NCBI GenBank assembly: GCA_905234865.1
Contig: CAJOJE010000006.1
Coordinates: 1-64,000 of the forward strand
Direction of reading: 5' to 3'
DNA: 64,000 nucleotides
Origin: Candidatus Gastranaerophilales bacterium
GTDB taxonomy: Bacteria; Cyanobacteriota; Vampirovibrionia; Gastranaerophilales; Gastranaerophilaceae
Shown: positions 35,700 to 63,411 of the stretch, one piece after another
How the letters are laid out: each line of letters starts with the position of its first letter
How positions within the stretch are numbered: the stretch's first letter is position 1
Translations under genes and position numbers: made by a program
The notes under the pieces: generated by a model
Seen by the model: only the letters and a program-made list of their open reading frames with translations
What the model was told of the DNA's origin: nothing
Databases searched by the model: none

Positions 35700-35719
35700 G
35701 ACACCGTCTAAGCGGTGTC
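35700..35719 (-). terminator. Terminator of the small INFGKG gene
   Basis: GACACCG (35700-35706) and CGGTGTC (35713-35719) form a 7-bp stem followed by TTTT on the minus strand. The 86 bases between it and the gene's stop contain two copies of TTGTTAG 20 bases apart and no gene. Confidence 0.6.
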
Positions 35720-35805: not shown

Positions 35806-36036
35806 TTATGCGATATAGTTTAATTTTGATTGATTCAATCCTTTTTCAATACTGTAAGCTCTTGATTGAACTTGATAAAGAGAAGGAGCGACCGTTCCTA
35901 CGAACCCTGTTAATAAATTTCCTTCAACCATATTGTTTTTAACGGAAGGAGCTTGATAACCGTAATTGGTTTGAACTCCCTTACCGAAGTTTATTTTATT
36001 TGGTGTAATTTGTACATTTGCTACGGGATTTATCAT
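35806..36036 (-). CDS. Small hypothetical protein with an INFGKG motif
   Basis: This 76-residue protein begins MINPVANVQITPNKINFGKG. Short proteins with an early I-x-F-G-(K/A) motif recur in gut Vampirovibrionia, and the 214-residue protein at 2786 also starts MIN. The middle has a short hydrophobic stretch (NLLTGFVGTVAPSLYQV), and the tail is polar. No domain or function is known to me. It has its own promoter with TTGACA-N17-CATAAT and a terminator, so it appears genuine and independently expressed. Confidence 0.75.
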   Translation of the reverse strand: MINPVANVQITPNKINFGKGVQTNYGYQAPSVKNNMVEGNLLTGFVGTVAPSLYQVQSRAYSIEKGLNQSKLNYIA

Positions 36037-36325: not shown

Positions 36326-38731
36326 ATGATAGAAAAATTCGATATAGAAGGTATGAATTGCGCCGCATGCGCTCTTAGAATAGAAAAAACCGTATCAAAA
36401 CTTGATTTTGTAAAAGCCGTAAGCGTGAGTCTTATAAATAATTCAATGACGGCAGAATTTGACGGTAACGTTGAAGATATAATAAATGCCGTAAACAATG
36501 CAGGTTATAGAGCTTATATAAAAAATTCACCTTTAAAAAATAAAAATGACGATTTTCAAAATTTAAAAAGGAAAACCGCACTAAATTTTGTTTTTTCAAT
36601 TCCTCTTTTATACCTGTCTATGGGATGTATGTTAAAGTTGCCTTTTTATAAATTATTTGAAGAACATATTTTAATGTCTTCTTTTATACAACTTATTTTG
36701 TTATTAATAATTATATATATTAATTTAAACGTTATCAAAAGCGGAATAAAAAGTTTATTCAAATTAACTCCCGATATGAATTCGCTTATTTCTTCGGGGG
36801 TAATTTCTTCCTTAATTTACGGAATTTATGTTTTATTAAAATCATTTTTTTACAAATTATACGGAATGCCTTATTTTGAAATTTTAAACTCAAATACGTT
36901 TTTTGAAAGCGGCGGAATGATTTTAACTTTTGTTTCTTTGGGAAAAACTATGGAAGCCAAGGCAAAATTTAAAACATCGAATTTAATTTTAGAATTAAAT
37001 AACTTAACGCCAAAAAACGCAAATATTTTATTAAACGGAAACGAAGAAAAAATTCCCGTAGAAAAAATAAAAGCAAAAGATATTTTGATTGTAAAAGAAG
37101 GAGATTACATCCCGACAGACGGAGTAATTATCGAAGGAAACGCTTTAATCGACGAATCATATTTAACGGGCGAGAGTATTCCCGTATATAAAAAAGAAAA
37201 AGATGAAGTTTTATCCGGTACAATAAATACAAGCGGATATTTCAAAATGAAAGCAAACAAAATTATACAAGATACGGTTTTATCAAAAATTATAAAATTA
37301 ACCGAATCTACTCTTGAAAATAAACCCCCTATTCAAAAAATCGCCGATAAAATTATTTTTATTTTTGTACCCGTCGTAATTTTATTATCTTTTATGACAT
37401 TTTTGTTTTGGATAATTTTTACGAAAAATTTTGAACTCGGATTGAGTTACGGAATATGTACTCTTGTAATTTCCTGTCCATGCGCTTTAGGGCTTGCAAT
37501 TCCCGTTTCAATCACCGTTGGTATGGGAGTTGGCGCAAAATCGGGTATTTTATTTAAAAATTCCGATATTCTTGAAAAGTCGGAAAAAATTGATACCGTT
37601 GTTTTTGATAAAACGGGAACTTTAACAAAAGGAAAAATTACGATAGATAAAATTTATGAGGATAAATTAAATAAAAATGAAATATTAAAATTATCCGCTT
37701 CAATAGAACAATTTTCAAACCACCCTTACGCTCTTGCAATTAAAAACAAGTATAGCGGAGAAATTTACCCCGTTTATGATTTTTTACAAACTCAAGGGCT
37801 TGGAATAGAGGGTATTATAAATGATAAAAAATATTTTATCGGGAACAAAAATTATGTTCAAAAACAAAATATCACAATTTTGGATGATAATTTTGAGGGT
37901 ATTTATTTAACGGATGAAGAAAATATCTTAGGGAGAATTTCTTTTTCGGATGAAATAAAAGAAGAAGCAAAAGATGTTATTCAAAAGTTATTAAGTATGA
38001 ATAAAGAAGTTATTATGCTGACAGGCGACAATGACAATTCCGCAAATAAAACGGCTCTGAAAATCGGAATTAAAAATGTTATCTCAAATGTTTTACCCGA
38101 TATGAAAAATTATGAAATCAAAAAATTAAAAGAAGAAAATAAAAAAGTTTTAATGATAGGAGATGGCATAAACGACGCTCCCGCACTTGCCAAAGCGGAT
38201 ATTTCCGTTTCTTTTAATACGGGAAGTGACATTGCAATTTGTACATCAGATATTATTTTAATCAAAAATGATTTATATAACATTATAAATGCTATTAATT
38301 TAAGCGGGCTTATATATAAAAACATTAAACAAAATCTTTTTTGGGCACTTTTTTACAATATAATTTTTATTCCCGTTGCAATGGGAGTATTTACGCCGTT
38401 TAACATAAAGTTGACATCCGATATATCAGCACTTTTAATGAGTTTAAGTTCATTGTTTGTCGTACTTAACGCACTTAGAATAAACAATTTTAAACCGATT
38501 AAAAAGGAGGAAAATATGAAAAAGGAAATTCTTATTGAAGGAATGATGTGCAATCATTGCGTGTCTTTTATAAAAGAAAACCTTTTAAAAGAAAGTTATA
38601 CAAAAAATGTTGAAATTAGTCTTGAAAATAAAAAAGTCATAATTGAATTAAATCAAGAAGTTGATGATAGTATAATAAAAAATCTTATTGAAAAAATCGG
38701 ATATAAGGTTATTGAAATTAAGAAAATATAA
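36326..38731 (+). CDS. copA: Copper-translocating P1B-type ATPase with an extra C-terminal HMA domain
   Basis: This 801-residue P-type ATPase exports monovalent copper. The N-terminal metal-binding domain has GMNCAACALR (C12, C15). The membrane CPC is C384-P385-C386 in ISCPCALGLAIP. The phosphorylated aspartate is D428 in DKTGTLTKG. The HP locus is SNHPYAL, and the hinge is GDGINDAPALAKAD. Unusually, residues 731-801 are a second HMA domain (EGMMCNHCVSF) that looks like a complete CopZ chaperone fused behind the last helix. Bacterial CopA proteins normally carry HMA domains only at the N-terminus. The junction contains a ribosome-binding site and ATG, described separately. The start ATG has AAGGTAA upstream. 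Confidence 0.95.
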   Translation: MIEKFDIEGMNCAACALRIEKTVSKLDFVKAVSVSLINNSMTAEFDGNVEDIINAVNNAGYRAYIKNSPLKNKNDDFQNLKRKTALNFVFSIPLLYLSMGCMLKLPFYKLFEEHILMSSFIQLILLLIIIYINLNVIKSGIKSLFKLTPDMNSLISSGVISSLIYGIYVLLKSFFYKLYGMPYFEILNSNTFFESGGMILTFVSLGKTMEAKAKFKTSNLILELNNLTPKNANILLNGNEEKIPVEKIKAKDILIVKEGDYIPTDGVIIEGNALIDESYLTGESIPVYKKEKDEVLSGTINTSGYFKMKANKIIQDTVLSKIIKLTESTLENKPPIQKIADKIIFIFVPVVILLSFMTFLFWIIFTKNFELGLSYGICTLVISCPCALGLAIPVSITVGMGVGAKSGILFKNSDILEKSEKIDTVVFDKTGTLTKGKITIDKIYEDKLNKNEILKLSASIEQFSNHPYALAIKNKYSGEIYPVYDFLQTQGLGIEGIINDKKYFIGNKNYVQKQNITILDDNFEGIYLTDEENILGRISFSDEIKEEAKDVIQKLLSMNKEVIMLTGDNDNSANKTALKIGIKNVISNVLPDMKNYEIKKLKEENKKVLMIGDGINDAPALAKADISVSFNTGSDIAICTSDIILIKNDLYNIINAINLSGLIYKNIKQNLFWALFYNIIFIPVAMGVFTPFNIKLTSDISALLMSLSSLFVVLNALRINNFKPIKKEENMKKEILIEGMMCNHCVSFIKENLLKESYTKNVEISLENKKVIIELNQEVDDSIIKNLIEKIGYKVIEIKKI
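38516..38731 (+). CDS. CopZ-like copper chaperone nested in frame at the 3' end of copA
   Basis: Inside the ATPase frame, AAGGAGG at 38503-38510 sits 6 bases before an in-frame ATG at 38516. Translation from there gives a 71-residue protein with GMMCNHCVSFIKENLL and the beta-alpha-beta pattern of Atx1/CopZ. Its size is that of free CopZ (about 69-72). No stop codon separates it from copA, so two products are possible: the fused 801-residue ATPase and a separate chaperone. It may be the relic of a normal copA-copZ pair whose stop codon was lost. Confidence 0.55.
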   Translation: MKKEILIEGMMCNHCVSFIKENLLKESYTKNVEISLENKKVIIELNQEVDDSIIKNLIEKIGYKVIEIKKI

Positions 38732-61780: not shown

Positions 61781-63411
61781 ATACAACAAAAATTGATAAA
61801 CAAGATTTAGTCTGGCAAATTGAACATAAGTCGGAAAATTGTGCATTGTGCGGAAAATGTGTTGCTGCATGTACGTTTGGAGCAATTAAAGCAGATGTTA
61901 TAAGAAAACGTGAAATAATTTCGACAGATTTAACCCCGAACCCAAAATCCGTTGAAAAAGCAATTCCCGTTATAAAACAAGTTGTCACGAAGTCAAAAAA
62001 TTGCGTAGGGTGCGGAATGTGCGCAAAAGTTTGCGAAAACGGCGCAATTAAACCCGTTTATAACGAAAGACACAGAATGAACGTTAAATACAGGGCAAAT
62101 AACGCAGAATCTCCGAAAAGAGGCGGAAGAACAAATCTTCATACGGAAGGAAGAACTTTAGACAAAATCAAAGTCGGCAGAATTTCTCAAATGACAGACC
62201 CCTCGCTTGATGCAATGCGCCATACTTTTGAACTTTTGGCGCCGTTCGGAAGAGTTATGCCCCCTGAAAATCTTCCTTTAGAAGTTGATTCAACGGGTAA
62301 TTTACAGCTTAATAAAAAAATTCCCACAACTCGTTGGATATATCCGATTATAATAGGCGATATGTCAATTGGCGCACTATCTCCGAGGCTTTGGGAAGCA
62401 GTTTCGATTGCGGTTGCTTATTTAAACGAAGTTTATCATATTCCGATAAGAATGTGTTCGGGCGAAGGCGGAGTTCCCGAAAAATTAATCCGCTCAAAAT
62501 ATATCAAATATTTAATCATACAAATTGCTTCAGGGCACTTCGGCTGGAACAGAATTATAAATTCAATGCCATATATGGTGGATGATCCTGCGGGGATTAT
62601 GATTAAAATAGGGCAAGGCGCAAAACCCGGGGATGGCGGACTTTTGTTATCCAAAAAAGTTGCGCCTCATATTCAAGAAATAAGAGGCGTGCCGAAATCC
62701 GACCTTTTATCTCCTCCAAATCATCAAGGGCTTTATTCGATTGAAGAAAGCGTTCAAAAAATGTTTTTATCAATGAATGCGGCATTTAAATTCAGAGTTC
62801 CCGTTTCAATTAAAGTCGCTGCTTCTACAACGAGCGTTTCCGTTTATAATAATTTATTGCGTGACCCTTATGATATCGTGGGCGGATTTTTCTTAGACGG
62901 TATAGCAGGCGGTACGGGCGCAGCGCATGAAATATCTTTAGATCATACGGGTCATCCGATTGTATCAAGGCTTAGAGATTGTTATTTGGCAGCCGTTCAT
63001 CAAGGAAAACAGGGTCAAATTCCTCTTTGGGCTGCAGGAGGTTTAGGCATGAAAGGTACTCTTGCCGCAGATGCCTTCAAAATGATTTGTCTTGGCGCAA
63101 ACGGCGTATTTACGGGTCGTTTGATTTTACAAATTGCAGGATGTCTGGGCGATGATTACGGAAGATGTAATGCTTGTAATACAGGGCTTTGTCCTGCAGG
63201 GCTTACTACTCAAAACCCGATTTTAATGAAAAGGCTTGATATAGATAAAGCGGCGCAAAATATCGTTAATTATTTCCTTGCAACCGATATTGAGCTTAAA
63301 AAATTAATGGCGCCTATCGGTAACTCAAGTTTACCCGTCGGACGTTCAGACGCTCTTGTTACGGTTGATAAGAATGTTGCCGAAAGACTCGGCATTCAGC
63401 ATGTTTGTTAA
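61768..63411 (+). CDS. Glutamate synthase FMN/Fe-S subunit with N-terminal ferredoxin domain
   Basis: This 547-residue protein is the central GltB domain. An N-terminal pair of 4Fe-4S motifs (CALCGKCVAAC and CVGCGMCAKVC) receives electrons, probably from ferredoxin or a partner. The FMN barrel has DLLSPPNHQGLYSIEES and FFLDGIAGGTGAAHEIS, and its Fe-S site is GRCNACNTGLCPAGLTTQNP. It converts 2-oxoglutarate plus ammonia to glutamate. ATG 61768 overlaps the upstream amidotransferase gene. This architecture is the archaeal or anaerobic type. Confidence 0.94.
   Translation: MAAVDTTKIDKQDLVWQIEHKSENCALCGKCVAACTFGAIKADVIRKREIISTDLTPNPKSVEKAIPVIKQVVTKSKNCVGCGMCAKVCENGAIKPVYNERHRMNVKYRANNAESPKRGGRTNLHTEGRTLDKIKVGRISQMTDPSLDAMRHTFELLAPFGRVMPPENLPLEVDSTGNLQLNKKIPTTRWIYPIIIGDMSIGALSPRLWEAVSIAVAYLNEVYHIPIRMCSGEGGVPEKLIRSKYIKYLIIQIASGHFGWNRIINSMPYMVDDPAGIMIKIGQGAKPGDGGLLLSKKVAPHIQEIRGVPKSDLLSPPNHQGLYSIEESVQKMFLSMNAAFKFRVPVSIKVAASTTSVSVYNNLLRDPYDIVGGFFLDGIAGGTGAAHEISLDHTGHPIVSRLRDCYLAAVHQGKQGQIPLWAAGGLGMKGTLAADAFKMICLGANGVFTGRLILQIAGCLGDDYGRCNACNTGLCPAGLTTQNPILMKRLDIDKAAQNIVNYFLATDIELKKLMAPIGNSSLPVGRSDALVTVDKNVAERLGIQHVC

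Follow-up and report, generated by a model that had tools for sequence, protein, structure and literature searches.

How could a single gene supply a cell with both a copper pump that carries its own chaperone and the same chaperone set free? In other words, once a chaperone domain has been joined to the end of a pump, is there still a way to make that domain alone? The question is raised by one locus in a stretch of 64,000 nucleotides from a Candidatus Gastranaerophilales bacterium (the whole stretch that was analyzed, which we call the window). There, copA runs without a stop into a copZ-like sequence, and the junction carries what looks like a second place for ribosomes to begin. We argue that copA and copZ were very probably fused by loss of a stop codon and that selection keeps internal initiation in place, so that the locus would yield both a CopA-CopZ protein and free CopZ. 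The features on which the argument turns, all of them on the + strand, are these.

36326 to 38731, +: copA-copZ fusion open reading frame (ORF), 801 aa, predicted Cu(I) P1B-type ATPase with an HMA domain at both ends
36338 to 36508, +: N-terminal HMA (metal-binding) domain with GMNCAAC, PF00403, residues 5-61
37475 to 37483, +: CPC motif of TM4, typical of Cu(I) P1B ATPases, read from the translation
37607 to 37621, +: DKTGT phosphorylation motif, read from the translation
38486 to 38515, +: linker from TM8 to the C-terminal domain (NNFKPIKKEEN region), seen in the alignment of relatives and carrying the putative internal ribosome-binding site
38504 to 38510, +: internal Shine-Dalgarno (SD) sequence AAGGAGG, -11.8 kcal/mol
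38516 to 38518, +: internal ATG (Met731), conserved in relatives, proposed start codon of free CopZ
38516 to 38731, +: CopZ-like cistron, 71 aa, calculated 8.3 kDa, from CopZ models and predicted fold
38540 to 38560, +: metal site of the CopZ-like domain, GMMCNHC

The Pump and Its C-Terminal Domain

The fusion ORF is intact from ATG to TAA and matches HMA twice, E1-E2 ATPase and Hydrolase in Pfam. It scores 526.5 bits against TIGR01511 (cut-off 397), and the nearest solved structure is 3j09, a CopA (E 1.5e-134). Its translation reads CPC in TM4, DKTGT, TGES, GDGIND, YN in TM7 and MSLSS in TM8. Subfamily model and motifs alike thus place the predicted product among the Cu(I)-exporting P1B-type ATPases (CopA).

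The earlier note on this DNA had seen a complete CopZ-like domain at the C terminus of the ATPase, and that domain is indeed whole. When the final 71 amino acids were searched alone, CopZ models covered residues 2-65, with nearly the full length of the models aligned, the best of them at 43 bits against a curated cut-off of 91, which it does not reach. The predicted structure (mean pLDDT 94) runs beta-alpha-beta-beta-alpha-beta from residue 2, that is, a modeled CopZ/HMA chaperone fold with its CxxC loop, complete from the first residue. The domain is CopZ-like by fold and motif, and it lies outside curated equivalog/exception membership.

A Probable Start Codon Inside the Gene

At the boundary, the DNA reads AAA AAG GAG GAA AAT ATG, with a spacer of 5 nt (AAAAT) between the SD sequence and an ATG that is in frame; the sequence bears out the earlier reading of both elements exactly at the domain boundary. 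How unusual is such a site? Among ORFs of at least 180 aa in the window, which together hold 357 internal ATGs and 45 first ATGs, its SD:anti-SD energy of -11.8 kcal/mol is the lowest of all the internal ATGs and lower than that of 44 of the 45 first ones. Of 3936 in-frame ATGs inside the genes of relatives, only 0.05% have so low a value, and when the amino acids of the window gene were held fixed and synonymous codons drawn at random, the mean was -2.8 and 0.7% of draws came as low. The predicted RNA fold around the internal SD of the window gene is no more stable than that of shuffles. By comparison, the SD at copA's own start in the window gene is worth only -3.5, and the difference between the two sites suggests that free CopZ would be made in excess of the pump.

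These energies assume the host's anti-SD, as the 16S rRNA is absent from the assembly: a search of the whole genome (G000, 99.6% complete) for a 16S rRNA gene found none. The gene was probably lost during binning or assembly.

How Common Is the Fusion?

One objection to a fused gene is that sequencing or assembly joined two genes that are separate in the cell, and the window is known from assembled sequence. The gene is rare close to home, being present in the window's genome only among 9 of the host genus and in 7 of 288 genomes of the host family. On the tree, the window gene clusters on a long branch with the family's other fused genes (SH-aLRT 79-88, which is weak).

Farther away, the picture is one of abundance. 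Within the family of a Lachnospiraceae MAG, 136 of 200 genomes match a profile of the fused gene at E ≤ 1e-60, and within its class 111 of 245 do so at the same threshold; the profile (membrane helices, linker and C-terminal HMA) was built from fused genes and both counts take in split genes and a few without the C-terminal domain, so the fused share is to be read with caution. We retrieved and parsed 204 different fused genes, the window gene counted. Named examples come from complete plasmids, of Roseburia sp. 831b, Ruminococcus albus 7 and Butyrivibrio fibrisolvens, where each fused gene sits behind a "metal-sensing transcriptional repressor" (which, from its description, we take to be CsoR-like), has at its boundary both an ATG and an SD-like stretch and is annotated as a single pump with no CopZ.

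About 200 other genomes have this in-frame fusion, including six from the host family and those complete plasmids. This leaves an error in the present assembly with a negligible chance of explaining it, and we regard a one-off or an artifact as ruled out by the relatives that share the arrangement. The more specific worry raised at the outset, that a missed base hides a stop codon between the domains, is very unlikely for the same reason. As judged from these sequences, it is confirmed that the fused form is common across much of Clostridia and found in the host's order, and that it is neither a local oddity nor a sequencing error. Such wide conservation is beyond what a single sequence could have revealed.

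What the Relatives Conserve

If the boundary ATG were a start codon, one would look for it in the relatives. It is there in 194 of the 204 fused genes, as a Met 6-10 residues ahead of GMxCxxC (exactly 8 in 166 of them), in a linker where Met is rare upstream of that position. The 10 exceptions are instructive. In two (L062 and L145), an ATG with a strong SD lies at a greater distance ahead of the motif; one (L236) has GTG in place of ATG, with an SD of -11.9; and two (L157 in G382 and L235 in G713) end in tandem HMA domains and have SD and ATG at the second HMA only, the last HMA domain being their predicted free product. With these 5 displaced or alternative starts, each with a strong SD, the start is kept in about 97% of fused genes. 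The other 5 (L042, L105, L134, L243 and L246) have no convincing boundary start, from which it would follow that free CopZ from the fused gene is dispensable in some lineages.

The SD is conserved no less plainly, and this conservation of start and SD in about 200 relatives is what decides against chance. Its median energy is -8.9 in 188 nonredundant linkers, against -2.8 at the 3936 other internal in-frame ATGs and -3.1 where the ATG is out of frame, and energies of -6 or lower are found in 88% of the linkers against 12% of the other in-frame sites. These are values of the kind seen at genuine starts, such as those of separate copZ genes in split relatives (-9.3) and of copA itself (-7.8). 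In a scan along the region, the main SD peak stands at the boundary, and a lesser rise some 35 nt downstream covers the conserved Gly-Met-Met-Cys (GGMxC) codons. Around the boundary start, RNA structure is much weaker than inside genes (-2.05 vs. -12.54), an effect owed partly to A-rich linkers. As a control, second N-terminal HMA domains have no Met at the equivalent place in any of 11 cases, with a median SD of -4.1 (a small sample).

Might the protein alone account for this? One could suppose that selection acts on the linker residues (Lys-Glu-Glu or Lys-Gly-Glu, then Met) for the sake of the protein and that the SD is a by-product, and it is true that charged linkers, with their K, E and G codons, push the SD score up unaided, such that synonymous shuffles of the 188 linkers still average -6.0 ± 0.18. 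The real mean is -8.97, which none of 1000 shuffles reached. Moreover, the GGA of the SD lies in codon phase 1 in 129 genes, in phase 0 in 46 and in phase 2 in 4, encoding different residues, and its phase changed at least 35 times on a tree built without the linker; a constraint at the protein level would have held it to one phase. GGAG also varies less in its distance from the ATG (sd 1.25 nt) than in its distance from the protein motif (sd 1.86 nt). We find the by-product explanation barely credible, and protein-level constraint by itself is ruled out by the synonymous shuffles and the phase changes. Because the sequences are kin to one another, p-values are not to be taken at face value; the shuffles and the phase changes carry the argument.

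A second alternative leaves the SD its interaction with the ribosome and denies it a start. SD-like codons within genes have been proposed to pause ribosomes, and a site just past the last membrane segment would be well placed to slow elongation while the pump or its C-terminal domain folds, with no initiation at all. Pausing has no need, however, of an ATG at a fixed spacing or of a GTG to replace it, nor need the SD travel with the ATG when the ATG sits at a Met farther upstream or at the second of a pair of HMA domains. We think pausing highly improbable. The comparison of sequences indicates that SD and start are conserved beyond the demands of the protein, as functional internal initiation would have it.

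Where the Fusion Probably Came From

How did a probable start codon come to lie inside a gene? The earlier note had advised looking for relatives with a stop codon between the domains, and there are 16 of them. In these split relatives, copA ends in a stop, a gap of 2-159 nt follows, and the SD and start of a separate copZ stand at the same place; Listeria has the same gene order, with 12 nt between copA and copZ and AGGAGG ahead of copZ. One genome (G447) has split and fused copies together. Profile matches with one TAA had been candidates for split genes and were rejected, as many turned out to be fused genes whose stop coincides with the domain's end or lies beyond it; the genuine split genes were identified from sequence instead. 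On the tree, the fused label needs five changes, and the tree does not tell gain from loss.

The natural reading is that, in an adjacent copA-copZ pair, the intergenic stop codon was lost in frame, and copZ's ribosome-binding site and start codon were retained. Retained for use, or merely left over? The SD and ATG could be relics of the fusion without a present role, the fused pump being the sole product, and the split relatives, together with the genome that has both forms, do make fusion of adjacent genes the likely origin. A relic would not be expected to last, however: the start is kept in nearly all fused genes and a strong SD in most, despite linkers that have diverged across Clostridia and the host's order, and through all those phase changes, drift would have erased the SD. 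We consider a relic improbable.

The reading that we prefer, in which the start is still used, can be stated simply. A single mRNA would have two in-frame starts. From the first would come the 801-aa Cu(I) exporter with its tethered C-terminal CopZ-like domain; from the second, at 38516, would come CopZ by itself, 71 aa long. In its free form, the chaperone would pick up Cu(I) in the cytosol and hand it to the pump, and the tethered copy may load or regulate the pump.

Is There Another Source of CopZ?

In the host's genome, an HMA profile (E ≤ 1e-6) finds no match outside the two domains of the fusion gene, and six relatives in the family likewise have two HMA matches each. If the cell has a free CopZ, then, it most likely comes from the fusion gene. 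Among the genomes sampled, a separate CopZ-like ORF is found in 3 of 5 genomes without the internal start and in 4 of 44 others (Fisher p 0.017), among matches listed to E of about 1e-11, in groups counted by hand and with ORFs of 115-180 aa left out; that a separate CopZ is commoner where the fused gene has no internal start is only suggestive.

The proposal of the earlier note, that one locus gives a pump with a tethered chaperone and a free chaperone as well, thus gains support as a prediction from SD and ATG kept despite divergence of the linker, from the shuffles, from an SD that tracks the start, from the split relatives and from the failure to detect a second copZ. For the wider group, we think it likely that a large family of pumps of Clostridia and of the host's order is bifunctional; a large share of the species would make the chaperone, a protein overlooked in annotation, only or mainly from inside copA, with the ratio of tethered to free forms set by the internal ribosome-binding site.

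Precedents and Meaning

Meydan et al. 2017 and Drees et al. 2017 are said to have dealt with frameshifting in E. coli copA and with CopA(Z), and McBride et al. 2020 reportedly described Cas11 from internal in-frame initiation. Programmed -1 frameshifting lets E. coli copA give both CopA and CopA(Z) (PMC5009743). In both cases, a single gene would supply an ATPase that exports Cu(I) together with a free chaperone, CopZ-like and about 70 aa long, the small product being a prediction here. In E. coli, that chaperone is the N-terminal domain, cut short by the frameshift, whereas the one proposed here is the C-terminal domain, begun by internal in-frame initiation with no frameshift needed. The likeness to CopA(Z) drawn in the earlier note accordingly holds for the outcome and fails for the mechanism and the domain.

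For the mechanism, the better likeness is Cas11, the small subunit for which translation starts internally and in frame within cas8b, cas8c and cas10d (PMC11899642). There too, a large gene ends in a small domain with an in-frame start and an SD of its own, and that domain is made as a separate protein. The proteins and their function are unrelated, and the small Cas11 product has been shown and forms complexes with the large one, whereas ours is a prediction. By analogy, then, Cas11 (PMC11899642) would be the precedent for mechanism and E. coli copA (PMC5009743) the precedent for outcome. Separate copA-copZ operons (Listeria, Staphylococcus and many Clostridia) share with the fused gene the gene order, the CopZ family and the position of SD and ATG past the last membrane helix; they differ in having a stop codon between the genes and no tethered C-terminal chaperone. 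We found no report of a fused copA-copZ with an internal start in the open-access literature, which does not prove that there is none.

What would it mean if all of this is true? Many Clostridia, including species of the gut and rumen, would be annotated without a standard component of copper defense, since gene callers list the pump and nothing else. There would be a second, independent route by which one gene becomes pump and chaperone, using another mechanism and the opposite end of the protein from E. coli. There would also be a clear test case for asking why one chaperone exists in both a tethered and a free form, and a large body of comparative data on conserved in-frame internal initiation in bacteria.

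Other Observations

HMA domains turn up in other settings as well. One ORF directly upstream of copA (L127:1-180, in G319) has an HMA domain at its C-terminal end, and other Lachnospiraceae genomes have separate ORFs of 120-180 aa with an HMA domain. Within the window, two more internal ATGs of long ORFs have a strong SD, at 63048 (+, -11.5) and at about 1060 (-, -9.8); these could be chance or misplaced starts. Upstream of copA, a short ORF of 76 aa, beginning MINPVANVQITPNKINFGKG, lies on the - strand at 35806-36036, and near it, at 35700-35719, is a terminator-like hairpin with an 8-bp stem.
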